Of a DNA stretch of 25,835 nucleotides, positions 5,033-25,287 are shown one piece after another. The DNA lies in the IMG/VR virus record IMGVR_UViG_3300010885_017866, positions 1 through 25,835 of that record. The stretch is one strand, 5' to 3'. Source of the DNA: a virus. Under the pieces are notes generated by a model. It did not search any database. It saw only the letters and a program-made list of their open reading frames with translations, and was not told the origin of the DNA. Position numbers and translations under genes: made by a program. Position 1 is the stretch's first letter. Each line of letters starts with the position of its first letter.

Positions 5033-5992
5033 ATGACATTAATCATCGGCGGATCATCAGGAGTAACTCCGGCACAATGGACTACTGCAGGTCGCCCAAC
5101 TTCACCTAATCCAGGGCAGTCAGGATGGAATACTACACTCGCACAGTTTGAAGTATATACCGGCGTGTCTTGGATTTCAATAGCAACCAGCGCAACATCA
5201 TATTCAGCAAGTTATTTAATTGTAGCTGGTGGCGGTTCTGGAGGTACAAATGATGGCGGTGGAGGTGGAGCCGGTGGATTATTAACAGGAACTGCAACAG
5301 TTAGTGTTGGCACTACATATTCTTTTGTTGTTGGTGCTGGAGCCGCAGCAACTGCAGGAAACGGAAATGGAACTCAGGGCGCTAATTCTTCAGGCTTTGG
5401 ATTTACTGCTATAGGCGGCGGATTTGGCGGCGGCAATAATGGCGGAACAGCAAATGCTGGCGCAGGCGGCTCAGGTGGTGGAGGTGGAAATAACGGTGGT
5501 GGTGCTGGCGGGTCAGGAACCGTTGGACAAGGCAATAATGGCGGCGCTGGAAACATAAATGCAAACTATCCAGGCGGTGGTGGCGGTGGCGCAGGCGCTG
5601 TGGGTGCCACAGCTAGTAGTACAACTGCTGGTGGAGCAGGCGGAGCAGGAACAGCTAGTTCCATTACAGGTAGTTCCGTAACATACGCAGGCGGTGGTGG
5701 TGGCGCTATTATTACTAGTGGAGGAAGTGTCGGTGCCGGCGGTGCCGGTGGTGGCGGAGCAGGTGGTGGCGGAGCTTCTGGATCAGGCGCAGGTATAGCA
5801 GGCACAGCAAATACTGGTGGCGGCGGTGGAGGCGGGGCAAGTGGAAATTCAGGATCTGGTGGATCAGGTGTAGTTATTATATCAATTCCAACGGTATATT
5901 ACACCGCTACTTACACGGGCACACCTACTATCACAACATCGGGCGCAAACACAATTTTACAATTTAACGCTTCAGGTAGTTACACAGCTTAA
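5033..5992 (+). CDS. Glycine-rich adhesin-like tail protein 2 of 6
   Basis: This 319-residue protein is preceded by a good ribosome binding site (AAGGAT at 5021-5026). Residues 1-55 form a different N-terminal module from gene 1: GVTPAQWTTAGRPTSPNPGQSGW followed by FEVYTGVSW, the RPxSPxxGxxxxNT...ExYxxxxW motif seen in phage tail proteins. From residue ~62 comes the shared body: YSASYLIVAGGG, GAGGLLTGT, TYSFVVGAGA, FTAIGGGFGG, YPGGGGGGAG, SSITGSSVTYAGGGGG. It ends with the shared tail GVVIISIPT...TITTSGANTILQFNASGSYTA. The central ~220 residues are close to half glycine. A receptor-binding role is inferred from composition and from its place among fibre genes. It has exactly the same length as the next gene, consistent with recent duplication. 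Confidence 0.85.
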   Translation: MTLIIGGSSGVTPAQWTTAGRPTSPNPGQSGWNTTLAQFEVYTGVSWISIATSATSYSASYLIVAGGGSGGTNDGGGGGAGGLLTGTATVSVGTTYSFVVGAGAAATAGNGNGTQGANSSGFGFTAIGGGFGGGNNGGTANAGAGGSGGGGGNNGGGAGGSGTVGQGNNGGAGNINANYPGGGGGGAGAVGATASSTTAGGAGGAGTASSITGSSVTYAGGGGGAIITSGGSVGAGGAGGGGAGGGGASGSGAGIAGTANTGGGGGGGASGNSGSGGSGVVIISIPTVYYTATYTGTPTITTSGANTILQFNASGSYTA

Positions 5993-5994
5993 TC

Positions 5995-6954
5995 ATGCCA
6001 CAAACAACTATACTTGATCCTATTTATGGAATTACTCCTAGTGCTTGGACAACTGCTACACGTCCATCGAGCCCTACTATAGGTCAACAAGGTTGGAATA
6101 CAGATTTACAACAATATGAAATTTACACTGGTTATGGAACTTGGACTCAAGTTACTACCTCCCCAATATACACAGTAAGTTATTTAATAGTAGCAGGTGG
6201 CGGCTCAGGCGGCGCTTCTACTTATACTTCTGGATCAGGCGCAGGCGGTGGCGGTGGTGGAGCAGGTGGATTAATTTCTGGAACTACTACTTTAACTTCT
6301 GGAACAGCTTATACAATTACTGTTGGTGCTGGTGGTGCTGCTGTTGGTGGGTCAGCAAATAATTATTTTCAAGGTAATCAAGGCGCTAATTCGTCGGGGG
6401 TTGGGTTTACTGCTATAGGTGGAGGGTATGGAGCTAATCCAGGAAGCCTAGGTGGAGCAGGCGGATCAGGCGGTGGTGGAGGATATTTAGCTGGCACAGG
6501 TGGCTCAGCAACTTCTGGGCAAGGCAATGCTGGCGGAGGAGGTGTATCAAGTGCTCCTTATCCAGGTGGCGGTGGAGGTGGTGCTAGCCAAGCAGGCAAT
6601 ACTGGCGGTCAAGGTGTGGGCGGTAACGGGTCATCTAGTTCTATTACAGGCTCGTCTATAACTTACGCAGGAGGTGGCGGCGCATCTAACTATAGTGGCG
6701 GCGCCTTTTCTGGAGGATCAGGTGGCGGCGGAGCGGGCGGTACTAACGGCACCGCTGGCACTACAAATCTTGGTGGTGGTGGTGGAGCGGCAGGTGGCGG
6801 CACATATACATCTGGAGCAGGCGGATCGGGGGTAGTCATTATATCAGTTCCTACTTCTCGTTACACAGGAACAACTACTGGTAGCCCTACTATCACTACT
6901 TCAGGCAGTAATACGATAATTAAATTTACAAGTTCAGGAACATATACAGCATAA
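5995..6954 (+). CDS. Glycine-rich adhesin-like tail protein 3 of 6
   Basis: This 319-residue protein starts two bases after the previous stop with no separate ribosome binding site, so it is probably translated by coupling. It shares the N-terminal module of gene 2 (GITPSAWTTATRPSSPTIGQQGW, then YEIYTGYGTW, residues ~9-50). It also has the common body YTVSYLIVAGGG, GAGGLISGT, YTITVGAGG, FTAIGGGYG, YPGGGGGGAS, SSITGSSITYAGGGG. The C-terminal tail is GVVIISVPTSRYTGTTTGSPTITT...SSGTYTA. The loops between glycine blocks differ from gene 2 in sequence and length although total length is identical. An overlapping out-of-frame reading at 6141-6362 is a shadow. A function as an alternative receptor-binding tip is inferred, not shown. 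Confidence 0.85.
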   Translation: MPQTTILDPIYGITPSAWTTATRPSSPTIGQQGWNTDLQQYEIYTGYGTWTQVTTSPIYTVSYLIVAGGGSGGASTYTSGSGAGGGGGGAGGLISGTTTLTSGTAYTITVGAGGAAVGGSANNYFQGNQGANSSGVGFTAIGGGYGANPGSLGGAGGSGGGGGYLAGTGGSATSGQGNAGGGGVSSAPYPGGGGGGASQAGNTGGQGVGGNGSSSSITGSSITYAGGGGASNYSGGAFSGGSGGGGAGGTNGTAGTTNLGGGGGAAGGGTYTSGAGGSGVVIISVPTSRYTGTTTGSPTITTSGSNTIIKFTSSGTYTA

Positions 6955-8039
6955 TGGCAACAACAATTAACGCACAACCAGGTACATCATTACTACCAAC
7001 AGCTATTATCAAAACAGCTGATGCTACAGGTAATCTTGCGCTTCAAACTTCTAGTGTTACAGGTTTAACCATAGACACACTACAAAACATCACAGCTACA
7101 TCAGCTGGAGCATTTGGTATTCCTGTTGGAACCACTGCCCAACGACCAGCAAGTCCTGTAAATGGTATGATACGCTATAACAGTAGTGGTGGCGGATTAG
7201 AAGGCTATATTAACAATGCGTGGATATTAATTTCAGGTAATGCTGCTACTTATACAGCAAGTTATTTAATTGTAGCTGGTGGTGGTGGATCTGCCGCTTA
7301 CGGTGGTGGCGGAGGAGCAGGTGGTTTATTATCAGGCACATCAACCTTAACTTCTGGAACAACTTATACTATTACTGTCGGAGCCGGGGGAACTGGTGTT
7401 GCTGGAGCAGTTGGTAATAATGGAGGCAATTCATCAGCAGTAGGATCAACTGCTATAGGTGGCGGTTACGGATCTTACGGTGGCACAGCGGCAGCCGCAG
7501 GCGGCTCGGGCGGTGGCGGCGGAAATAATAATCCTTATTTGTTGGCCGGCGCAGGTACTAACGGACAAGGCTATCAAGGCGGTAACGGAGCATATGGTGG
7601 CGGCAACGGATACACATCAGGCGGTGGCGGTGGAGCAGGTGGCGTAGGTATAGCTGGTAACGGAACAAATGCTTCTGGAAACGGCGGACCTGGGGCAAAT
7701 TCTTCTATTACCGGATCAACAGTAACTTATGCTGCTGGTGGCGGCGGCGGCGGATTTACAACTTATGGTGTTGCTGCCGGTATAGGTGGTAATAGTATTG
7801 GCGGTAATGGCGCTGTTACTACTGGCGCGGCTGGTACAGCCGGAGCTACTAATACTGGTTCAGGTGGCGGAGGTGGAGCAGGTGGTGGCGGTACTGGTGG
7901 AAATGGCGGATCAGGAGTAGTTATATTATCTATTCCAACTGTAGCATACACAGGCACTACAACAGGGTCACCTACAATTACTACATCTGGATCAAATACA
8001 ATAATTAAATTTACAAGTTCAGGAAGCTACACAGCATGA
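6954..8039 (+). CDS. Glycine-rich adhesin-like tail protein 4 of 6
   Basis: This 361-residue protein shares one base with the previous stop (TAATG). Its N-terminus combines two modules. Residues 1-45 are of the TADATGNLALQT type, as in genes 1, 5 and 6. Residues ~55-95 are an RP-type module, TTAQRPASPVNGMIRYN then GLEGYINNAWILIS, so it bridges the two N-terminal styles seen in the array. The glycine-rich body follows with YTASYLIVAGGGG, GAGGLLSGT, YTITVGAGG, STAIGGGYG and SSITGSTVTYAAGGGGGG. The shared tail GVVILSIPT...SGSNTIIKFTSSGSYTA closes it. The gene ends in the ATGA overlap with gene 5, which favours coupled translation. Adhesin-like role inferred as for its neighbours. Confidence 0.85.
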   Translation: MATTINAQPGTSLLPTAIIKTADATGNLALQTSSVTGLTIDTLQNITATSAGAFGIPVGTTAQRPASPVNGMIRYNSSGGGLEGYINNAWILISGNAATYTASYLIVAGGGGSAAYGGGGGAGGLLSGTSTLTSGTTYTITVGAGGTGVAGAVGNNGGNSSAVGSTAIGGGYGSYGGTAAAAGGSGGGGGNNNPYLLAGAGTNGQGYQGGNGAYGGGNGYTSGGGGGAGGVGIAGNGTNASGNGGPGANSSITGSTVTYAAGGGGGGFTTYGVAAGIGGNSIGGNGAVTTGAAGTAGATNTGSGGGGGAGGGGTGGNGGSGVVILSIPTVAYTGTTTGSPTITTSGSNTIIKFTSSGSYTA

Positions 8040-9088
8040 CAACTACTATAAACGCATCTAGTTCAGGGCTAATAGAAACTTCTGATACCTCAGGAAACTT
8101 ACAGTTTCAAACTAATAGCACGGCCGCACTAACTATTGACAATAGTCAAAATATTTCTTGTAATGGTACCGGTGCTTTTATGGTTCCTGTAGGCAACACA
8201 GCACAACGTCCTAGTAGTCCAATCAACGGAGCATTAAGATACAACACTAGTAACTATGCTTTAGAAGGCTACATAGGTAATGCTTGGGCTAATATATCTC
8301 AAAATTTACCTGTTTATACAGCAACTTATCTTGCAGTTGGTGGTGGTGGCGGATCTGGCGGAGGATGGAACTCTGGTGGTGGTGGTGGCGGAGGCGGAGG
8401 CCTACTAACAGGAACTGCAACATTTAATATAAGCACAGTATATACTATTACTGTTGGTGGTGGCGGAGCAGGACTTACAACAGGATCAAATTCCGTTATT
8501 TCTGGAACAGGTTTATCTACTATTACTGCTCTTGGTGGTGGTGGCGGTAGTGATGCTACAGGTGGGGGAGCGGCAGCTGGAAAAAGTGGCGGATCTGGAG
8601 GAGGAGGTTCCTCAGGATCAGTAGCTACTGCTGGCGGCGGTGCTGGCACAGTAGGTCAAGGAAAAGATGGCGGAAGTTCTTATCTTGTAGCTTCTTCATG
8701 GATAGGTGGCGGCGGCGGTGGAGCAAGTGCCGTTGGATCATCACCTGGCAACGGAGGAGCAGGCACCGCCAGTTCTATCACAGGAAGTTCTGTTACATAC
8801 GCAGGCGGTGGCGGTGGCGGATCATCTAATACTACTGGAGGCACAGGAGGTACTGGCGGTGGTGGAAACGGAGTTTCAAATGGCGGTGGCGGATCAACAG
8901 CTGGAACTGCTAATTTAGGTGGCGGTGGCGGAGGTGGCTATGGAACAACTACAGGAGGCTCTGGAGTAGTTATTTTATCCGTGCCTACAGCAAGTTATTC
9001 AGGAACTACTACCGGTTCGCCTACAATTACTACAGCTGGATCAAATACTATAATCAAATTTACAGCAAGCGGAACTTACACAGCATGA
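8036..9088 (+). CDS. Glycine-rich adhesin-like tail protein 5 of 6
   Basis: This 350-residue protein begins inside the ATGA overlap with gene 4 (8036-8039). Residues 1-40 read MTTTINASSSGLIETSDTSG and are almost identical to the start of gene 6, also at the DNA level apart from mostly silent changes. The RP-type module (TAQRPSSPINGALRYN, ALEGYIGNAWANIS) spans residues ~55-95. The body has YTATYLAVGGGGG, YTITVGGGGAG, ALGGGGGS, GTVGQGKDGG, IGGGGGGAS, SSITGSSVTYAGGGGGGS and then the shared tail GVVILSVPT...SGTYTA. Compared with gene 4, differences are concentrated in the loops between glycine runs. The gene ends in another ATGA overlap. Confidence 0.85.
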   Translation: MTTTINASSSGLIETSDTSGNLQFQTNSTAALTIDNSQNISCNGTGAFMVPVGNTAQRPSSPINGALRYNTSNYALEGYIGNAWANISQNLPVYTATYLAVGGGGGSGGGWNSGGGGGGGGGLLTGTATFNISTVYTITVGGGGAGLTTGSNSVISGTGLSTITALGGGGGSDATGGGAAAGKSGGSGGGGSSGSVATAGGGAGTVGQGKDGGSSYLVASSWIGGGGGGASAVGSSPGNGGAGTASSITGSSVTYAGGGGGGSSNTTGGTGGTGGGGNGVSNGGGGSTAGTANLGGGGGGGYGTTTGGSGVVILSVPTASYSGTTTGSPTITTAGSNTIIKFTASGTYTA

Positions 9089-10197
9089 CAACTACAATAA
9101 ATGCATCTAGTTCAGGATTAATAGAAACTTCAGATACATCTGGAGTATTACAACTACAAACTAACGGTAATGCAGCATTAACTATTGGCACAGACCAAAA
9201 CGCCGCATTTAATAGCACTGGTGCTATTACACTTCCTAACGGAACTACAGTACAACGTCCTACAGGATCTAATGGAATGTTACGTTATAATTCGTCAACA
9301 AAAGCTCTTGAGGGATATTTAAATAATGCGTGGACTACAGTAACTCCTCCTTCAACCTACACCGCATCTTATTTAATTGCAGCTGGTGGCGGAGGCGGCG
9401 GACATCAAGGCGCAGGCGGAGGCGGTGCTGGTGGGTTAATAACAGGGTCAACTACTTTAACTCCCTTTACAACTTATAGTTTTGTAATTGGGGGCGGGGG
9501 TGCTGGATCCTTAGATAATGGTATTACTGGATATAACGGTACAAATACAACAGGATTTAGTTTAACCGCTGTAGGCGGTGGTGGAGGTGGCTCTCGAGGG
9601 TCTGCTAATGATGGTCGAGGTGCCGCCGGCGGATCTGGAGGTGGTGGCGGCTGGATTGGAACAGGCGGCTCTGGAACCGCAGGACAAGGTAGTGCTGGTG
9701 GGGCTGCGAATACTGGTGGATATGCTGGTAATGAGCCTGGCGCTGGTGGAGGTGGAGCCGGAGCAGTAGGCGCTTCTACAGCAAACTCAACAAATGTAGG
9801 CGGCGCTGGCGGTACTGGTAATGTATCGTCAATTACAGGCACTTCACTATACTATTGCGGTGGCGGAGGTGGCGCCGCAGTAACTGGTGGTAACGGTGGT
9901 GCTGGCGGAGGTGGCGGCGGATCTGGAGCAACTACCCCTGGTACTGGCGGTTCAAACGGTGGCGGCAACGGTACTACGATCAACGGTGGCAATGGCGGCA
10001 CAAATACAGGTGGCGGAGGCGGCGGCGTTGGTGGTCCACAATTTGGCCCAGTATCAGGCACTGGTGGATCTGGAGTAGTTATATTATCTGTACCTACAGC
10101 ACAATATTCAGGGGTGACTACAGGATCGCCAACAGTTACTACTTCTGGTAGTAATACTATAATCACATTTACATCAAGTGGGTCTTATACCGCTTAA
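9085..10197 (+). CDS. Glycine-rich adhesin-like tail protein 6 of 6
   Basis: At 370 residues this is the longest of the array, and it starts in an ATGA overlap (9085-9088). The N-terminal module matches gene 5 (SSSGLIETSDTSGVLQLQTNG). The RP module (TVQRPTGSNGMLRYN, ALEGYLNNAWTTVT) is a few residues shorter. The body shows YTASYLIAAGGGGGG, GAGGLITGS, TYSFVIGGGGAG, LTAVGGGGGGS, GTAGQGSAGG, EPGAGGGGAGAVG and SSITGTSLYYCGGGGGA, which includes the only cysteine I noticed in the glycine bodies. The tail is GVVILSVPTAQYSGVTTGSPTVTT...SSGSYTA. It is the last gene of the unbroken fibre run; the next gene has its own late promoter. Adhesin-like role inferred. Confidence 0.85.
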   Translation: MTTTINASSSGLIETSDTSGVLQLQTNGNAALTIGTDQNAAFNSTGAITLPNGTTVQRPTGSNGMLRYNSSTKALEGYLNNAWTTVTPPSTYTASYLIAAGGGGGGHQGAGGGGAGGLITGSTTLTPFTTYSFVIGGGGAGSLDNGITGYNGTNTTGFSLTAVGGGGGGSRGSANDGRGAAGGSGGGGGWIGTGGSGTAGQGSAGGAANTGGYAGNEPGAGGGGAGAVGASTANSTNVGGAGGTGNVSSITGTSLYYCGGGGGAAVTGGNGGAGGGGGGSGATTPGTGGSNGGGNGTTINGGNGGTNTGGGGGGVGGPQFGPVSGTGGSGVVILSVPTAQYSGVTTGSPTVTTSGSNTIITFTSSGSYTA

Positions 10198-11695: not shown

Positions 11696-11702
11696 TATTT
11701 AC
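11696..11702 (-). promoter_or_regulatory. Late promoter element GTAAATA for the Nudix gene
   Basis: On the minus strand GTAAATA is followed by seven bases (CCCCGCT) and the ATG at 11688. With T4 late spacing the transcript would start about two bases before the ATG, leaving no room for a ribosome binding site. It lies between the gp15 stop and the Nudix start. Confidence 0.4.
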
Positions 11703-14476: not shown

Positions 14477-14482
14477 AACAAG

Positions 14483-14489
14483 TATTTAG
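14483..14489 (-). promoter_or_regulatory. Late promoter element CTAAATA for gp14
   Basis: The minus strand has CTAAATA followed by six bases (CTTGTT) and the gp14 ATG at 14476. T4 late spacing predicts a transcript starting one base before the ATG. The element lies back to back with the rightward sigma70-type promoter beginning at 14501. Confidence 0.6.
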
Positions 14490-14500
14490 CTATTAAACGG

Positions 14501-14529
14501 TTGACTTTTAATTCCAAATGCTATATAAT
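14501..14529 (+). promoter_or_regulatory. Sigma70-type promoter (TTGACT - 17 - TATAAT), leaderless
   Basis: TTGACT at 14501-14506 and TATAAT at 14524-14529 are separated by exactly 17 bases. The expected start of transcription, seven bases after the -10 box, is 14536, which is the A of the ATG. No ribosome binding site is present. An apparent earlier ATG at 14518 lies inside this promoter and cannot be in its transcript. Confidence 0.75.
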
Positions 14530-14535
14530 AGCTGT

Positions 14536-14787
14536 ATGGATGAAATTTTAAACCGTGTAAATGTAGTGGAAAAGCAAATTTCTGCGGTAAAAAATAAGGT
14601 AGCATATAGGGATCTACGTAAAATGCTAGATGGTGTGGATCGAGTAGTTACCGAAATTAGTAAGGAATCTGTGGAGTGTAGACGTATGAAACGTGATACT
14701 CTTAAGTATAATGAGCTAAAAGAAAAAGCTAATAGCTTATTAGATAACTTAGAGCAACACGTTACTTTTGCCAACCTAATCGGGTAG
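14536..14787 (+). CDS. Small helical (coiled-coil-like) protein, 83 aa, unidentified
   Basis: The start is set at the ATG at 14536 because the longer in-frame start at 14518 falls within the promoter. The 83-residue product (MDEILNRVNVVEKQISAVKN onward) is almost entirely helix-forming, with charged residues and Leu/Val/Ile in heptad-like spacing (VNVVEKQISAV, LRKMLDGVDRVV, LLDNLEQHV), and has a single Cys at about residue 49. It has no membrane segment or enzyme motif. Its strong sigma70-type promoter suggests early expression by host polymerase, as expected for a small host-interaction protein, but no function is recognised. It is followed after 40 bases by a second gene with its own sigma70-type promoter. 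Confidence 0.7.
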   Translation: MDEILNRVNVVEKQISAVKNKVAYRDLRKMLDGVDRVVTEISKESVECRRMKRDTLKYNELKEKANSLLDNLEQHVTFANLIG

Positions 14788-14789
14788 GC

Positions 14790-14818
14790 TTGACAAACAA
14801 TAAACTTGATATTATACT
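14790..14818 (+). promoter_or_regulatory. Sigma70-type promoter (TTGACA - 17 - TATACT)
   Basis: TTGACA at 14790-14795 and TATACT at 14813-14818 are separated by 17 bases. Predicted transcription start is near 14825, three bases before the ATG at 14828, so the leader is too short for a ribosome binding site. The promoter starts directly after the stop of the preceding small gene. Confidence 0.75.
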
Positions 14819-14827
14819 ATTAAAACT

Positions 14828-15973
14828 ATGGCTAAAAACGAAACTACAATTAAAAGATTAAACCCAAAGGGTGCTGAGACCAAGTATGTTGGTTTTGAAC
14901 CCGAATGGAACTTTCAACCAGACGATACTAATCGCCTTTCAAAATTTGCCAACGCATTTCAATGGTACAATTATCATTATGGCAAAAAAGATGCTAAAGA
15001 TATGATTGCTACTTATTTGGAAATTAATCATCGCAAACCAGATGCTAAACTAATTCGTGGCATTCCAGATAGTCAAATTCGTTTAACCCCAGGTTGGGTA
15101 TGTCGTATGGCAACAATGGGGTTAGTGTTAAACGAACACGAACAATGTATTTTAGATGAGCAAATTTCGTTAATGCTTAAATCTAAACAAGAAGTTAAAA
15201 AAGCGGCGGCAACAGACGAAGAAACAGCAGTAGCAAAACTAACTATTCAAGATCACCTCAGAGAAAAAGCGTCAGAGTGCGCAGGTGAACTTGAAGGAAT
15301 GTTTGATGACTTTATTACAGCCGGCGCTAAGATGTCAGCAGACTTTAAGCCCATTGCGTTAATCCGCGGTATGAATATTAGCACACAAATGATCCCTAAC
15401 ATTACTCGGGTATGGGATTTACGACTCGCTGAATTTAATGAAGTATTAACTGGTAATGATGAGCAATTAGTAGAAGGCTACAGTCACTTATCAAAAGCAC
15501 AACTCAAACAATGCGTTAAATTTTGCGAAACAGTATTACAAGATTGCGCTTCTTATATTTCCATTAAGAAAGTAGAACGCAAGCCACGTGCTAAGAAAGC
15601 AGTAAGTCCAGAACGCCAATCACGTGGATTTAAATATCTTAAAGAGTTTACAGAGCTTAATCTTAAATCAGAAAACCCAGCAAAACTGGTTGGAGCAAGC
15701 GAAGCATGGTTATATGATACAGCCAAGCGCAAACTAATCCATGTAATGGCAGACGCACACTTAGGTACATTCACTGTTAAAGGCTCAGCTATTATTGCTT
15801 TTGATACCCTAACAACTATGCAAAAAACTTTGCGTAAACCTGAGGAACAGCTTAAAGCAATTATGTCCGGCGGAAAACCAGCTATGCGTAAGTCCTTTGG
15901 GGAAATTAAAGCTACTGAGACTAAGTTTACAGGTCGTGGAAATGAGAATTTAATCATTCTAAAGGCTTGGTAA
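14828..15973 (+). CDS. Conserved T4-like aquatic phage protein of unknown function, 381 aa
   Basis: The N-terminal ~130 residues include VGFEPEW, FANAFQWYNYHYGKKDAKDM and RLTPGWVCRMATMGL, and are helical and charged. The middle is helical (KASECAGELEGMFDDF). The C-terminal ~130 residues carry the motifs KPRAKKAVSPERQSRGFKYL, LVGASEAWLYDTAKRKLIHV and LKAIMSGGKPAMRKSFGEIK. I recall proteins with this VSPE...GAS(E/Q)xWxYxTxxRKL C-terminal half from many cyanophages and pelagiphages, always without a known function. The basic stretch and compact beta part could bind nucleic acid, but no catalytic motif is evident. It has a near-consensus sigma70-type promoter with an almost leaderless start, implying early, strong expression. 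It precedes gp13 by 30 bases, with a late promoter between. Confidence 0.8.
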   Translation: MAKNETTIKRLNPKGAETKYVGFEPEWNFQPDDTNRLSKFANAFQWYNYHYGKKDAKDMIATYLEINHRKPDAKLIRGIPDSQIRLTPGWVCRMATMGLVLNEHEQCILDEQISLMLKSKQEVKKAAATDEETAVAKLTIQDHLREKASECAGELEGMFDDFITAGAKMSADFKPIALIRGMNISTQMIPNITRVWDLRLAEFNEVLTGNDEQLVEGYSHLSKAQLKQCVKFCETVLQDCASYISIKKVERKPRAKKAVSPERQSRGFKYLKEFTELNLKSENPAKLVGASEAWLYDTAKRKLIHVMADAHLGTFTVKGSAIIAFDTLTTMQKTLRKPEEQLKAIMSGGKPAMRKSFGEIKATETKFTGRGNENLIILKAW

Positions 15974-15978
15974 AAATG

Positions 15979-15985
15979 CTAAATA
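15979..15985 (+). promoter_or_regulatory. Late promoter element CTAAATA for gp13
   Basis: CTAAATA with predicted start near 15991 gives a 13-base leader that includes GGAG at 15995-15998, well placed for the ATG at 16004. Confidence 0.6.
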
Positions 15986-16003
15986 TATGGACACGGAGTC
16001 CAT

Positions 16004-16774
16004 ATGGCATTGCAAACAGAATCTACACTTGAAACGTTAAAACAAAACTTAATCGAATATGTTCGCCTACAGCTGGGCGATCAGATTATTGATATTGAGT
16101 TAGATCCAGGGCACTACGAATCAGCTTATCGTAATGCTATTGGCACTTATCGTCAAAGAGCAGAAAATGCTTACGAAGAAAGTTACACCTTTATGGAACT
16201 TGTAACTAACGTAAATATTTACGATTTGCCAGAAGAAGTAATTACTGTACGTCAAATTTTCCGCCGTACTTTTGGCAACTCTACCGGGCCATATGCGTCT
16301 AACTTTGATCCATTCTCCCAAGCTACAATGAATGTTTACTTAATGAACTTTAACGTAGCTGGAGGTTTGGCAACTTATGATTTTTATTCACAATATGTAG
16401 AATTAGCTGGTCGTATGTTTGGTGCTTATATGAACTATACTTGGAACCCAGTTACCAAAAAGCTACAACTAATTCGTGATCCAAAAGGCACAGGCGAGAA
16501 CGTGTTACTTTGGACATACAACTTAAAGCCAGAAGTAAACTTACTTTCTGATTATCAAATTAAACAATGGATTCGTAATTATATGTTTGGTAACTGTAAA
16601 ACTATGATTGGTGAAGCACGTGAAAAGTTTGCTTCCATTTCCGGACCACAAGGCCCAACATCACTAAACGGTGCCGCAATGAAAGCCGAAGGTATGGCAA
16701 TTATGCAACAATGTATCGAAGATTTGAAAAACTACGTTGACGGAAGTCAGCCCTTAACTTGGGTAATTGGTTAA
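16004..16774 (+). CDS. gp13: Neck protein gp13
   Basis: This 256-residue protein has GGAG at 15995-15998 as ribosome binding site. The N-terminus has the gp13 pattern: LKQNLIEYVRLQLGDQIIDI, then ELDPGHYESAYRNAIGTYRQ (compare T4 gp13, which has a short hydrophobic-Leu-Gly stretch, an 'INVELT' strand and a tyrosine-containing helix). It continues with NVNIYDLPEEVITVRQIFRR, a Tyr/Asn-rich centre (YFDFYSQY-like, residues ~125-145), and a C-terminal half with LLSDYQIKQWIRNYMFGNCK and a helix ending in the SQPLTWVIG tail. gp13 joins gp14 in the neck that seals the packaged head and accepts the tail. In T4 the genes 13-14-15 are contiguous and co-directional; here gp13 lies 1.5 kb away from gp14 on the opposite strand. 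Confidence 0.8.
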   Translation: MALQTESTLETLKQNLIEYVRLQLGDQIIDIELDPGHYESAYRNAIGTYRQRAENAYEESYTFMELVTNVNIYDLPEEVITVRQIFRRTFGNSTGPYASNFDPFSQATMNVYLMNFNVAGGLATYDFYSQYVELAGRMFGAYMNYTWNPVTKKLQLIRDPKGTGENVLLWTYNLKPEVNLLSDYQIKQWIRNYMFGNCKTMIGEAREKFASISGPQGPTSLNGAAMKAEGMAIMQQCIEDLKNYVDGSQPLTWVIG

Positions 16775-16781
16775 ACACTAC

Positions 16782-16810
16782 TTGATTTAATTTGGTTTTT
16801 GTGCTATACT
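16782..16810 (+). promoter_or_regulatory. Sigma70-type promoter (TTGATT - 17 - TATACT), leaderless
   Basis: TTGATT at 16782-16787 and TATACT at 16805-16810 have a 17-base spacer. The predicted start, 16817, is exactly the A of the dexA-like ATG. It drives the exonuclease / acetyltransferase / kinase operon. The final bases CTGTATG match those at the other leaderless starts at 14536 and 25293. Confidence 0.75.
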
Positions 16811-16816
16811 TACTGT

Positions 16817-17344
16817 ATGGCACAACATATCATGATCGACATCGAGGGACTGGACACAGGCCCTACAGCTACTATTTTAACTATAGCGGCACAATCTTTT
16901 GACCCATTTATTGAAGGATATGAAAACAAACCTTCTTTCTACACCAGAGTCACATTAGAGAGTCAAGAAAATCGTTCCATCAACGACGATACTATTGCTT
17001 GGTGGGCCACTCAACCTGAAGCGGCTAAGGAAGCATTTCACGAAGACAACCGCATTCCACTAGATCAAGCATTAGAAGGCTTACACAAACTATGCTGGCA
17101 CGCTGATTTTGTCTGGGCTAACGGCCCTACTTACGACATGAATATTTTAGAAAATGCTTATAGATCATTTGGCCGCCCACAGCCATGGCAATTTTATAAA
17201 GTACGTGACGCAAGAACTATCTACTCACTATGGCCCGACTGCCCCAAACCTCCAGTTGAGCATCACGCATTACAAGATTGCAAACGACAAATTATTATGC
17301 TACAACAAACATTCAAGCACTTAGGAATTAAATCGATTAGATGA
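16817..17344 (+). CDS. dexA: DexA-like DEDDh 3'-5' exonuclease
   Basis: The start is set at ATG 16817; the longer in-frame TTG at 16799 lies within the promoter. The 175-residue protein has the DEDDh exonuclease layout: MIDIEGLD (Asp8, Glu10), SINDDTIAWW (a hallmark of the DexA / Rv2179c-like group), WANGPTYDMNIL (Asp107), KVRDARTIYSL (Asp131) and EHHALQDCKRQI (His149 or His150, Asp154). T4 DexA is ~227 residues and degrades DNA, whereas related bacterial proteins act on RNA, so the substrate is uncertain. All catalytic acids are present. It is the first gene of a three-gene operon with ATGA overlaps, together with a kinase for DNA precursors, which fits host nucleic-acid recycling. Early expression is indicated by the promoter. 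Confidence 0.85.
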   Translation: MAQHIMIDIEGLDTGPTATILTIAAQSFDPFIEGYENKPSFYTRVTLESQENRSINDDTIAWWATQPEAAKEAFHEDNRIPLDQALEGLHKLCWHADFVWANGPTYDMNILENAYRSFGRPQPWQFYKVRDARTIYSLWPDCPKPPVEHHALQDCKRQIIMLQQTFKHLGIKSIR

Positions 17345-17808
17345 TTGAGATTGTTAGCACTCTCGATAATCCTAACGAGGTCGCAGAATTAGTTAGGCGC
17401 TCATTTAATTACACACCCGCAGGAAAAATGCCTGAGCTAATATCTAAAAAGCTAGAGCATTTAGTAGAAATAGAAAAAATAAAATATCTAATAGGGCTTG
17501 TTGAAGCTCCTAAATTTTACATTGTAGCAAAAGATAACACAAACATAATTGGCTTTGGTATTGTAAGTGAATCTAATTTACAATACTTTTATGATTTGAC
17601 TTGGGTATGCGTTGATCCCGAATATAGGAATCAAGGAATTGGCAAACAAATAGTAGCAAAAGCATTAGAATTTGCTAGACAAAAGGATAGAGAAATTGTT
17701 ATAATAACAGAGCGAACTAAGTTTTATGAAAATTTAGGCTTTGATATTTGTAATGAATTCAGACCTGGGTGGTATATGATGCTAACAACGACAATGGGAA
17801 AAATATGA
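17341..17808 (+). CDS. GNAT-family N-acetyltransferase
   Basis: This 155-residue protein overlaps the exonuclease gene by four bases (ATGA). It shows the GNAT acetyl-CoA site: the beta-4 strand LTWVCVDPEYR followed by the pyrophosphate loop R96-NQ-G99-I-G101 and the helix KQIVAKALEFA. A motif-B-like FYENLGF lies at residues 128-134. The N-terminal ~65 residues (NEVAELVRRSFNYTPAGKMP) are variable as in the family and presumably bind the acceptor. The acceptor could be a protein, an antibiotic-like amine or a metabolite; the sequence does not say. Co-expression from an early promoter with a nuclease and a nucleotide kinase makes a host-modifying or DNA-precursor-related role possible, but this is inference. 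The end overlaps the next gene by another ATGA. Confidence 0.85.
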   Translation: MIEIVSTLDNPNEVAELVRRSFNYTPAGKMPELISKKLEHLVEIEKIKYLIGLVEAPKFYIVAKDNTNIIGFGIVSESNLQYFYDLTWVCVDPEYRNQGIGKQIVAKALEFARQKDREIVIITERTKFYENLGFDICNEFRPGWYMMLTTTMGKI

Positions 17809-18767: not shown

Positions 18768-18774
18768 TATTTAG
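18768..18774 (-). promoter_or_regulatory. Late promoter element CTAAATA for the HNH-like gene
   Basis: On the minus strand CTAAATA is followed by five bases (GGTAT) and the ATG at 18762. T4 late spacing places the transcript start exactly on the A of the ATG. Confidence 0.5.
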
Positions 18775-18874: not shown

Positions 18875-21800
18875 ATGGCGAACACATTATTATCTCCAGG
18901 CGTACAAGTTACCGTTACTGACGAGAGCCAATATCTTCCAGCTGCTACGAACTCAGTTCCATTAGTAGTTATTGCTACAGCGCAGAATAAAGTTTCTGGC
19001 GACGGTACTGGAATTGCCCCAGGCACATTAGCAGTTAACGCAGATCAGTTATTTTTGGCTACTAGTCAACGTGCTCTTAGTGCTAATTATGGTGTTCCGT
19101 TCTTCTATCAAACAACTAACGGCACTCCAATTAACGGATACGAACTTAACGAATACGGCTTATTGGCTGCTTATTCCGCTCTTGGTGTTACTAATCGTTG
19201 CTATGTATTACGTGCCGCTATTGACTTAGCCGCTCTTACAGCTACACTAGTTCGTCCTACTGGCGATCCTGCTAATGGCAGTTACTGGTTAGATACTAAT
19301 GATTCACGTTGGGGCTTATTCCAATGGAATCAAACCAATGGCACATTTACTAATCAATCACCATTAGTTATTACAGATTCAATTTATTTAAATCCAAGTT
19401 CAACTGTTCCATTACAAACTTATGGTAGTATTGGTCAATATGCGGTTGTAGCAACTTATTCAACAAATCCAATTTATTACAAGCGTGGTGGCCCAACATC
19501 AACACAATCAAGTGCTACTGATGTTACTAACTTATACAACACATGGGTACAAGTTGGTAGTGACGAATGGCAAACTGCTTGGGCTACGGTACAAGGTCAA
19601 AATACTCCAACAAGTATTACCGCTGGCCAAACATTTAAACTTAATGGTATTGTAATTACAGTTCCAGCTAGTCCAAATAATACAGTAACAGGTATTTCTA
19701 ACGCAATTAATGCTGCTAGTATTGCTGGCGTTTATGCTGCTAACATGAATGGCGCATTAAACATTTATACTGACTCTGGCGCAGGATTTGAATATCCTAT
19801 TAGCGCAGGAACTGCTAACGGCACAACTACAACATTAACATTTGCTAGTGCGCAAGCATCAGCTCCATTTGCAATTGGCAGCACAATTACTGTAGAAGGA
19901 ATTGTTAGTAGTGGGTCTAGTACAACAGACTATAATGGTACATTTGTTGTTACAGCATGCACAACAACACAAGTAAGTTATGCTAATACTTCTAACGCTA
20001 CTTATGTTAGTGGCGGTAGTGCTTATTATGTTAGTGGTACACTTAATGTTGCTAACTTAACAGGCACAGCATTAACTACTTTAGGATTAACACAAGGCAC
20101 ATACAATGCTCCTGCTGTACAATCCAGTCCAAGTTATACAGTCCCACAATGGAACACTTATAGCACAAGTCCAGCTGGCGGAGCTCCAACAGGTTCTATA
20201 TGGCAAAAAACTAATTCTGTAAACTTAGGAACAGCATTAGTTGTTAGTAGATACAATTCAACATTAGGAACATTTGTTGCTCAAGCTACACCATTATACG
20301 CTAGCGATAACGCAGCAATTTATGGTTTAGATCCAGCAGGTGGCGGCTTTAACATTCCATCTGGATCAACCTATGCTCAATATAATCCGTTAGATAATAA
20401 TCAACTTGGATTAAAAATATTTGAACGTTATATTACTGGCGCAACTATTGTAACTGGTAGTAATACTACACAAACATTTACAATAGGTGACAGCTTTAAG
20501 ATAACAGCTACACAACCAGGCACATTAACTGAAGCGGTTGCTATAGTTACATTAACTGGCACTGCAGCAAGTGATTTTATTGCCGCAGTTAGTTCTGCTG
20601 ATATCTCTTATGTTAGCGCAACAATTAATAGTGCTGGCTCCATTGTGTTTACACACAGCGCAGGTGGCGATATTTACTTAAGAGAAATTATTGGTACTCC
20701 TGTAGCCGACGCTGGATTTACAACTAATACACAGTTTGTACGCCAAGGATATTATTTAGGTAATCCAGATTACTTAATCTTGTCTAACTGGGTAGGTAGT
20801 CCATTGTTTACATATACAGCAACTAATTCTGCTCCATTCCAAGATCCTACAACAGGTACATACTGGTATTATAGTGATCCTACTCAAGTAGACATTATGG
20901 TCCAAGAAAACGGTGAGTGGGTTGGATATCAAACAGTTACTTCAGATGCTCGTGGTTATAACTTAACATTGTGTAATGCTACTGGTCCTATTATTAGTGC
21001 TAGTGCTCCAACTACACAAACTGACACAGCACAAAGTCCGTTACAGTATGGTGATTTATGGGTTAACACAAGTGACTTAGAAGATTATCCATTGTTATAC
21101 CGCTGGGAAAATGTAAGTGGTGTACCACAATGGGTACAGATTGACAATACAGATGCTACTGATCCAAGTGGTATTTTATTCCAAGATGCTCGTTGGGCAC
21201 CTAACGGTACAACTAACCCAGTTACTGACGCATTGCCAACAATCCAATCATTGTTGACAAGTAACTATTTAGATATTGATGCTCCAAATCCATTACTATA
21301 TCCACAAGGTATTTTATTATGGAACACACGTCGTTCAGGATTTAATGTTAAAACATTCCAAGAGAATTACTTTAACAATCAAAGTTTCCCAACATACGAC
21401 TGGGTATCTACTACTGCTTACACCATTGGTGAATATGTTCAGTATAGTGGGTCTAACTATGTTTGTATTTTAAACAATACAAATCAAACACCTGATACAT
21501 CAACAACTTATTGGTCAGTTCAAACTGAAACTAATACATGGTTAACAGCTTCTGGCAACCGTCCAGACGGTGGACCATATATGGGTCGTCAGTCACAACG
21601 TCAAATTATTGTTGAATCTTTACGTGCTGCTATTAATACTAATACACAGATTCGCGAAGAACAAAACTACTATAACTTAATTGCTGTTCCTGGATATCCA
21701 GAGTTATCAACTAACATGGTAGAGTTGAACAACGAAATTAATAACGTAGCGTTTAACATTATTGACACACCATTACGTTTGAAACCAATTGATGTTGTTA

Positions 21801-22531
21801 CATGGGCTACAAACAATGATGGATTAGGATTACCTAGCGGTGACGGTAACTTTGCTACAGGCGATAGCTACTCAGGTACATTCTACCCAAGTTGCGAAAC
21901 ATTTGATTTAAGTGGTAACACAGTTGTTACATACCCAAGTCACATGATGATCCGTACAATTATTCGTTCAGACGAAGTTGCTTATCCATGGTTAGCTCCA
22001 GCTGGCACACGTCGTGGTTTAGTTGACAACGCATTCCAATTAGGCTATTTAGATGGCATTACTGGCATCTTCCAAACATTAAGTGTTGGCCAAGCATTAC
22101 GTGATGTATTGTATCCAAATCATATCAACCCAATTACCTTTATCCCAGGTGTTGGTATTGTAAACTTTGGTAACTTAACATTACAATTAACCCCAACAGC
22201 GTTGGATCGTATTAACGTAGCTCGTTTAGTAGCGTTTATCCGTGCTAGATTAGTTGTAATTGGTAAGCAATACTTGTTTGAGCCTAACGATCAAATTACT
22301 CGTACAGAAATTAGCAACTCTATTACTAGCTTATTGCTTGATATTGTAGCTAAACGCGGTATTTACGATTACTTGGTTGTTTGCGACAATACAAATAATA
22401 CACCTACTACAATCGACCAAAATCAGTTGTGGGTAGATATTGCTATTGAACCAGTGAAAGCTGTGGAATTCATCTATATTCCATTGCGTATTGAGAATAC
22501 TGGAGCGATTGCTCAACAGGCTATTGCCTAA
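18875..22531 (+). CDS. gp18: Tail sheath protein gp18 (enlarged, 1218 aa)
   Basis: The N-terminus MANTLLSPGVQVTVTDESQY, followed by VPLVVIATAQNK, is characteristic of T4-type sheath. The C-terminal ~310 residues are the conserved contractile core: RQSQRQIIVESLRAAINTNT, NNVAFNIIDTPLRLKP, YPSHMMIRTIIRSDEVAYPW, NHINPITFIPGVGIVNFGN, LDRINVARLVAFIRARL and VDIAIEPVKAVEFIYIPLRI. T4 gp18 has 659 residues. The ~560 extra lie in the middle and include several Trp/Tyr-rich repeats of the form PxxGxYWxxTxxxxWxLxxWNxxxGxF (residues ~125-160, ~440-470, ~665-760), a long Thr/Ser/Ala beta region (~250-420), and a carbohydrate-binding-like module at ~841-885. The extra domains probably decorate the outside of the tail. 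Strong ribosome binding site and late promoter indicate high late expression. Confidence 0.92.
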   Translation: MANTLLSPGVQVTVTDESQYLPAATNSVPLVVIATAQNKVSGDGTGIAPGTLAVNADQLFLATSQRALSANYGVPFFYQTTNGTPINGYELNEYGLLAAYSALGVTNRCYVLRAAIDLAALTATLVRPTGDPANGSYWLDTNDSRWGLFQWNQTNGTFTNQSPLVITDSIYLNPSSTVPLQTYGSIGQYAVVATYSTNPIYYKRGGPTSTQSSATDVTNLYNTWVQVGSDEWQTAWATVQGQNTPTSITAGQTFKLNGIVITVPASPNNTVTGISNAINAASIAGVYAANMNGALNIYTDSGAGFEYPISAGTANGTTTTLTFASAQASAPFAIGSTITVEGIVSSGSSTTDYNGTFVVTACTTTQVSYANTSNATYVSGGSAYYVSGTLNVANLTGTALTTLGLTQGTYNAPAVQSSPSYTVPQWNTYSTSPAGGAPTGSIWQKTNSVNLGTALVVSRYNSTLGTFVAQATPLYASDNAAIYGLDPAGGGFNIPSGSTYAQYNPLDNNQLGLKIFERYITGATIVTGSNTTQTFTIGDSFKITATQPGTLTEAVAIVTLTGTAASDFIAAVSSADISYVSATINSAGSIVFTHSAGGDIYLREIIGTPVADAGFTTNTQFVRQGYYLGNPDYLILSNWVGSPLFTYTATNSAPFQDPTTGTYWYYSDPTQVDIMVQENGEWVGYQTVTSDARGYNLTLCNATGPIISASAPTTQTDTAQSPLQYGDLWVNTSDLEDYPLLYRWENVSGVPQWVQIDNTDATDPSGILFQDARWAPNGTTNPVTDALPTIQSLLTSNYLDIDAPNPLLYPQGILLWNTRRSGFNVKTFQENYFNNQSFPTYDWVSTTAYTIGEYVQYSGSNYVCILNNTNQTPDTSTTYWSVQTETNTWLTASGNRPDGGPYMGRQSQRQIIVESLRAAINTNTQIREEQNYYNLIAVPGYPELSTNMVELNNEINNVAFNIIDTPLRLKPIDVVTWATNNDGLGLPSGDGNFATGDSYSGTFYPSCETFDLSGNTVVTYPSHMMIRTIIRSDEVAYPWLAPAGTRRGLVDNAFQLGYLDGITGIFQTLSVGQALRDVLYPNHINPITFIPGVGIVNFGNLTLQLTPTALDRINVARLVAFIRARLVVIGKQYLFEPNDQITRTEISNSITSLLLDIVAKRGIYDYLVVCDNTNNTPTTIDQNQLWVDIAIEPVKAVEFIYIPLRIENTGAIAQQAIA
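21395..21530 (+). other. Carbohydrate-binding-like module inserted in the sheath
   Basis: Residues ~841-885 of gp18 read YDWVSTTAYTIGEYVQYSGS, then NYVCILNNTNQTPDTSTTYW. This fits the CBM5/12-type pattern W...Y..G..V.Y.G..Y.C...N....P.....YW, with the terminal YW at residues 879-880. It sits just before the conserved sheath core, so it would be surface-exposed. A similar module is in gp14. Confidence 0.65.
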
Positions 22532-25280: not shown

Positions 25281-25287
25281 GTAAATA
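25281..25287 (+). promoter_or_regulatory. Late promoter element GTAAATA for gp16
   Basis: GTAAATA is followed by five bases (GCTGT) and the ATG at 25293. T4 late spacing predicts transcription to begin exactly at the A of the ATG. The 11-base string ATAGCTGTATG ending at this start is identical to that at the 14536 start. Confidence 0.5.

Follow-up and report, generated by a model that had tools for sequence, protein, structure and literature searches.

In a lineage of freshwater jumbo myoviruses, two kinds of promoter very probably operate side by side, each in a leaderless version and in a version with a Shine-Dalgarno (SD) leader. We reached this reading from a viral DNA fragment of 25,835 nucleotides (nt), IMG/VR record IMGVR_UViG_3300010885_017866—the whole 25.8-kb stretch being termed the window—and from its relatives. 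Host σ70-type promoters (TTGAC-17-TATAAT) lie either about 5-7 nt before an ATG or further upstream with an SD leader, and TAAATA promoters either 4-8 nt before an ATG or, likewise, further upstream with an SD leader. According to the proposed mechanism, the host polymerase would read them with σ70 and later, presumably, with a phage-encoded gp55-like sigma factor. In the proximal version, RNA synthesis would begin at the A of the start codon or no more than about 3 nt upstream of it, yielding SD-less messages. Ribosomes that recognize the 5'-terminal AUG, probably intact 70S particles carrying initiator tRNA, would then translate these. We infer the exact start sites, the leaderless route of translation, the timing and the use of the gp55-like sigma factor from sequence.

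A preliminary description had singled out three promoters on the plus strand of the window and proposed that they yield leaderless early messages. These promoters, their open reading frames (ORFs) and one contrasting start in the same operon are as follows:

14501 to 14529, plus strand: promoter TTGACT-17-TATAAT, hexamer score 11/12, -10 box ending 6 nt before ATG 14536
14536 to 14787, plus strand: ORF A, 83 amino acids (aa), function not assigned, predicted leaderless
14790 to 14818, plus strand: promoter TTGACA-17-TATACT, hexamer score 11/12, -10 box ending 9 nt before ATG 14828 (predicted 3-nt leader)
14828 to 15973, plus strand: ORF B, 381 aa, phrog_11903 (unknown function), predicted leaderless or near-leaderless
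15980 to 16003, plus strand: TAAATA followed by an SD (GGAG, 15995 to 15998) before ATG 16004, an SD-led start
16782 to 16810, plus strand: promoter TTGATT-17-TATACT with an extended -10 TG, hexamer score 9/12, -10 box ending 6 nt before ATG 16817
16817 to 17344, plus strand: ORF D, 175 aa, 3'-5' exonuclease (Pfam Rv2179c-like), predicted leaderless

Sequence inspection and a promoter scan confirmed the 17-nt spacers and the distances of 6, 9 and 6 nt, and no SD was found upstream of ATG 14536, 14828 or 16817. The term near-consensus fits the first two promoters; by its hexamers alone the third does not deserve it, and it is rescued by its conservation among orthologues, in which the TG of the extended -10 element (TGC-TATACT) is invariant. 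The promoter score by itself proves nothing, as the window region holds 56 sites scoring at least 9/12 against 52.0 +/- 8.2 in shuffled sequence. This agreement with the shuffle mean is what speaks for chance, i.e., for three promoter-like sites that happen to occur in AT-rich phage DNA. Such an explanation can practically be dismissed, refuted as it is by orthologue conservation and by the genome-wide counts of both σ70-type and TAAATA boxes described below. That chance was unlikely, as originally argued, is thus borne out by conservation of the arrangement, by conservation specific to the boxes and by enrichment in relatives, though not by the score. Further strong promoter-like sites, at 17676 and 11254 of the window, are not closely followed by a start codon. 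ORF A also contains an in-frame ATG at 14518, within the promoter spacer, and its relatives align from 14536. Mechanical start calling gives ATG 14518 and TTG 16799 in place of 14536 and 16817, an example of how such annotation misplaces leaderless starts.

Conservation of the arrangement was assessed in more than 100 viral contigs fetched with proteins of the window region as queries, near-identical upstream regions being removed. A promoter with its -10 box ending 5-10 nt before the ATG was present in 47/47 dereplicated orthologous upstream regions of ORF A, and one at 5-9 nt in 47/50 for ORF B and 24/29 for ORF D, whereas shuffled upstream regions yield an ATG-proximal promoter in 1.5-2.4%. 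SD-like tetramers were found in 2/47, 2/50 and 1/29 of these regions, respectively (5/126 when pooled). The neighboring ORF 16004 displays the opposite pattern, with a promoter at 4-10 nt in 0/46 and an SD in 45/46 orthologous upstream regions. Conservation is concentrated on the boxes: TTGAC is invariant upstream of ORFs A and B, and most -10 positions vary little or not at all in A, B and D, while much of the spacer carries little information, with ORF A also retaining an AATTC...AAA spacer motif. Codons 2-12, including those of ORF A, change mainly at third positions, as in translated sequence. The SD of ORF 16004 lies inside a short inverted repeat, TGGACACGGAGTCCA (window positions 15986 to 16003), the arms of which differ among relatives yet stay complementary (e.g., AGGACAAGGAGTCCT); it is possible that this SD is regulated or structured.

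Since the window is only a 25.8-kb fragment, genome-wide counts were taken from large relatives scanned in tiles—G001 (344 kb), G002 (320 kb), G003 (317 kb) and G008 (152 kb)—all records, including these, being possibly incomplete. Genes were called mechanically, and expected counts were derived from internal ATGs, the context of which is coding. Comparing bare -10 hexamers with the distance to all candidate start codons proved too noisy, and scoring of -35 plus -10 was used instead, a strong σ70 promoter being defined by at least 10 points summed over -35, -10 and TG. Likewise, a simple pattern with an ATG 4-9 nt after the box also matches coding DNA by chance, and counts based on gene starts were preferred. 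The high share of ATG among leaderless starts was set aside as evidence, the background of candidate starts not being one of true starts. Strong σ70 promoters ending 5-7 nt before an ATG numbered 16, 14, 14 and 7 in G001, G002, G003 and G008, with at most 0.5 expected in each; pooled, these 51 cases compare with about 1 expected. The geometry is therefore enriched in related phages, as the preliminary description had anticipated. In three of the genomes, 37 cases peaked sharply at exactly 6 nt (26 cases), with expectations of 0.5 or 2.0 depending on whether internal in-frame or out-of-frame ATGs served as reference. The control phages showed no excess at 5-7 nt (PA5oct, 1 vs. 1.2 expected; Synechococcus phage BUCT-ZZ01, 1 vs. 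0.6; T4, 1 vs. 1.2), although a peak of leadered promoters is present in PA5oct and T4, and the geometry is on this basis special to the lineage of the window among the phages tested.

The same genomes of the lineage contain a second sharp class of σ70 promoters, located 27-35 nt upstream of the start and mostly accompanied by an AGGAG-like SD, while an SD was absent in 42/42 σ70-type leaderless cases. Orthologues mostly share the same class, with switches such as that of ORF B. In 42 SD-led promoters, bases 6, 7 and 8 after the -10 box are mostly T-A-T (30, 30 and 33 of 42), and in the leaderless class at distance 6 the A of ATG sits at position 7. Both patterns fit an RNA start at position 7 after the -10 box.

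Several points weigh against a leaderless reading. The -10 box of ORF B ends 9 nt before its ATG in the window, which predicts a 3-nt leader, and in both G002 and PA5oct this ORF has an SD leader instead; the gene calls are mechanical, and the relatives are non-independent samples. The RNA start sites, moreover, are deduced solely from the position of the promoter. This favors an alternative in which the promoters are real, but the RNA starts some bases past the first ATG or, if leaderless, is translated inefficiently, the proteins arising mainly from read-through messages or an internal start. Upstream read-through could indeed supply leadered copies of the same genes, and is plausible because the genes are densely packed, one unit directly following another. 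We nevertheless consider this alternative improbable: the codons immediately after the ATG evolve as coding sequence, the promoter distance is conserved, and read-through messages would be equally devoid of an SD for these genes.

The leaderless geometry extends to a second kind of promoter. TAAATA is the core of T4 late promoters (TATAAATA), which are read with gp55. TAAATA boxes ending 4-8 nt before an ATG precede 32, 30, 26 and 14 genes in G001, G002, G003 and G008, with an SD in 0-1 of them, against expectations of 1.0, 0.5, 1.5 and 0.5 (pooled, 102 vs. about 3.5). The control phages again showed no comparable excess (T4, 1 vs. 2.9 expected; PA5oct, 3 vs. 1.8; BUCT-ZZ01, 1 vs. 0). A second, SD-bearing TAAATA peak lies at 14-26 nt. 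Among leaderless genes of G001 to G003, the distance between TAAATA and ATG has two maxima, 4-5 nt and 7 nt, and is less often 6 nt. Four boxes of this type occur in the window:

14483 to 14488, minus strand: TAAATA box 6 nt before ATG 14476 of the virion protein gene 14476 to 13124 (phrog_11591); 42/43 dereplicated orthologous upstream regions have it at 6-7 nt, with an SD in 1
18768 to 18773, minus strand: TAAATA box 5 nt before ATG 18762 of the 114-aa ORF 18762 to 18418; 18/20 dereplicated orthologous upstream regions have it at 4-5 nt, with an SD in 1
25282 to 25287, plus strand: TAAATA box 5 nt before ATG 25293 (165-aa ORF, phrog_16202); 13/13 dereplicated orthologous upstream regions have it at 4-5 nt, with no SD
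11696 to 11701, minus strand: TAAATA box 7 nt before ATG 11688 (Nudix hydrolase ORF), a weak case kept in only 1/4 orthologous upstream regions

Between the divergent starts 14476 (minus) and 14536 (plus), around positions 14477 to 14500, a TAAATA promoter and a σ70 promoter stand back to back, both of the leaderless type and conserved in most relatives.

AT-rich hexamers so close to the ATG might instead act as translation signals—an unstructured or S1-binding AU-rich stretch—with the RNAs starting further upstream, and AU-rich regions do aid SD-less translation in some bacteria (PMC5397173). We judge this highly improbable. The -35 element TTGAC is conserved together with the -10 box at a fixed 17-nt spacing, the same boxes are found at a larger distance before SD-led genes, and the scrambled hexamer AATAAT showed no enrichment at the leaderless distance. 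Two further control hexamers, ATAATA and AAATAT, were enriched, more weakly than TAAATA, and both overlap TATAAT and TAAATA in sequence.

In G001, 19 σ70-type and 33 TAAATA-type genes were classed as leaderless and 22 and 27, respectively, as SD-led, and so roughly half of the classifiable promoter-headed units are predicted to be leaderless. The σ70-type leaderless genes include those for a UvsW-like helicase, a DNA primase, a DNA polymerase-like ORF, a UvdE endonuclease and a phosphoribosyltransferase, as well as the ORF D exonuclease and ORF B; the SD-led σ70 genes examined encode a DUF2201 metallopeptidase, an HNH endonuclease and RtcB, the remainder being mostly without a family. The TAAATA-type leaderless genes of G001 include portal and virion proteins, so that a TAAATA/TATAAATA -10 box precedes virion genes as in T4-type late promoters. 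A gp55-like late sigma is encoded in G001 to G006, and none was found in the partial records G007 and G008 or in the window fragment; in G001 its own gene (start 73431) is an SD-led σ70-type unit. Hence, of the leaderless early messages originally proposed, leaderless positioning is strongly supported by conservation and enrichment. The qualifier early may suit the σ70-type leaderless genes, which belong largely to DNA metabolism, but not the larger TAAATA set, which covers portal and virion genes. Since TAAATA leaderless virion genes and SD-led σ70 genes both occur, the choice between leaderless and SD-led does not follow an early/late division; and, as TAAATA boxes share the geometry, the design would be lineage-wide in both promoter kinds and not restricted to early genes. 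One 195-aa leaderless-type ORF (G008, 52348 to 52935, minus strand) matches a short DNA polymerase family (phrog_11778), which suggests a split or accessory polymerase gene.

Some phage-encoded components may assist such translation. Initiator-type tRNA-Met genes lie inside phage tRNA clusters in G001 (331282 to 331355, plus strand) and G002 (275959 to 276032, minus strand). They carry two features typical of initiators, a C1-A72 mismatch and a CUCAUAA loop, but a U-G pair replaces the initiator G-C at the foot of the anticodon stem; they occur in 2/13 related records and 0/8 cultured phages tested. Ribosomal protein bS21 is encoded in 8/13 related records, including the following:

G001, 183610 to 183828: bS21
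G003, 175110 to 175328: bS21
G008, 20114 to 20332, minus strand: bS21

No IF3 was found encoded by the phages. As neither the tRNA nor bS21 is in all records, both are possible helpers, not requirements. In E. coli, 70S ribosomes bind leaderless messages, which depend on an AUG start and profit strongly from extra initiator tRNA (PMC9031893, PMC4965119). It is conceivable, though we hold it to be rather unlikely, that the phage separates leaderless from SD-led messages within one promoter class in order to redirect host ribosomes between the two, helped by its own initiator-type tRNA-Met and bS21—replication and key virion proteins thereby staying translatable when SD-dependent initiation is blocked or modified. 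Hints of the host are weak: G002 has a proteobacterial-looking tmRNA tag, and the best bS21 matches are in Proteobacteria, Burkholderiales and Neisseriaceae contigs from metagenome-assembled genomes, which may themselves be phage contigs. A Bacteroidetes host, considered by analogy with the bS21-encoding phages of PMC9723584, was set aside because those phages have 31-34% G+C vs. 40-46% here, and because of the SD leaders and σ70-consensus promoters. A proteobacterial host could handle leaderless messages, given that in Burkholderia cenocepacia the transcripts of 72 genes begin with the start codon itself (PMC4603805).

Leaderless mRNA, along with the promoter signature that marks it, is already known; what seems new is that a lytic jumbo phage should employ it systematically, and in both promoter classes. 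A limited literature search, with subscription papers outside its reach, found no report of a phage with a lineage-wide leaderless geometry in host-type plus T4-late-type promoters. The T4 late promoters share the TAAATA core and a gp55-like sigma with the lineage of the window, but in T4 most such boxes are found 14-35 nt upstream of the ATG and go with an SD, whereas our lineage also has the 4-8 nt class. Thermus phage P23-45 is a possible precedent: many of its middle and late transcripts are reportedly leaderless and made from extended -10 promoters, although it is a siphovirus whose host is rich in leaderless genes, and it is not known to have T4-type late promoters. Proteobacterial leaderless translation has mostly been studied on few messages such as that of lambda cI. 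This phage message starts at its AUG and is translated in E. coli via the 5'-terminal AUG (PMC4965119, PMC9031893), as predicted here, but it belongs to a single prophage gene, whereas dozens of genes of a lytic phage are predicted to be leaderless here. The AR9 paper remarks that phage transcripts are often leaderless (PMC5312081). In bacteria, a TATAAT-like box without an SD marks the 'TA-led' leaderless genes (Zheng et al. 2011, PMC3160421), in which the first T of the box lies about 12 nt before the start; the lineage of the window is alike, with a TANNNT-type -10 box at that position (modal end, 6 nt) and no SD. TA-led genes were described in cellular genomes, in contrast to a lytic phage lineage with a complete -35 element at 17-nt spacing and a second, T4-late-type class. 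Two classes are also seen in Lactococcus cremoris, with leaders of less than 5 nt and of about 40 nt and an empty gap between (PMC10986495); those were measured in a cell, whereas ours are predicted from promoter positions in a phage. If the proposed design is true, the lineage, with its dozens of divergent members in fresh water, would offer a natural test bed on a large scale for when a 5'-terminal AUG suffices, and for questions of resistance to host defences or translation shut-off and of tuning by initiator tRNA and bS21.

A few minor observations concern the genes of the window. ORF A had no Pfam or PHROG match. An AlphaFold model of ORF B reached a predicted local distance difference test score (pLDDT) of 66.6 and a predicted template modeling score (pTM) of 0.33, and no fold search was based on it. 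Positions 5033 to 10197 hold five consecutive paralogous ORFs of 319-370 aa with a phrog_2295 domain in common and little or no SD. Finally, positions 18875 to 22531 encode a very long tail sheath protein (1218 aa), the best phage matches of which span about 60-76% in two pieces, suggesting that it carries a large insertion.

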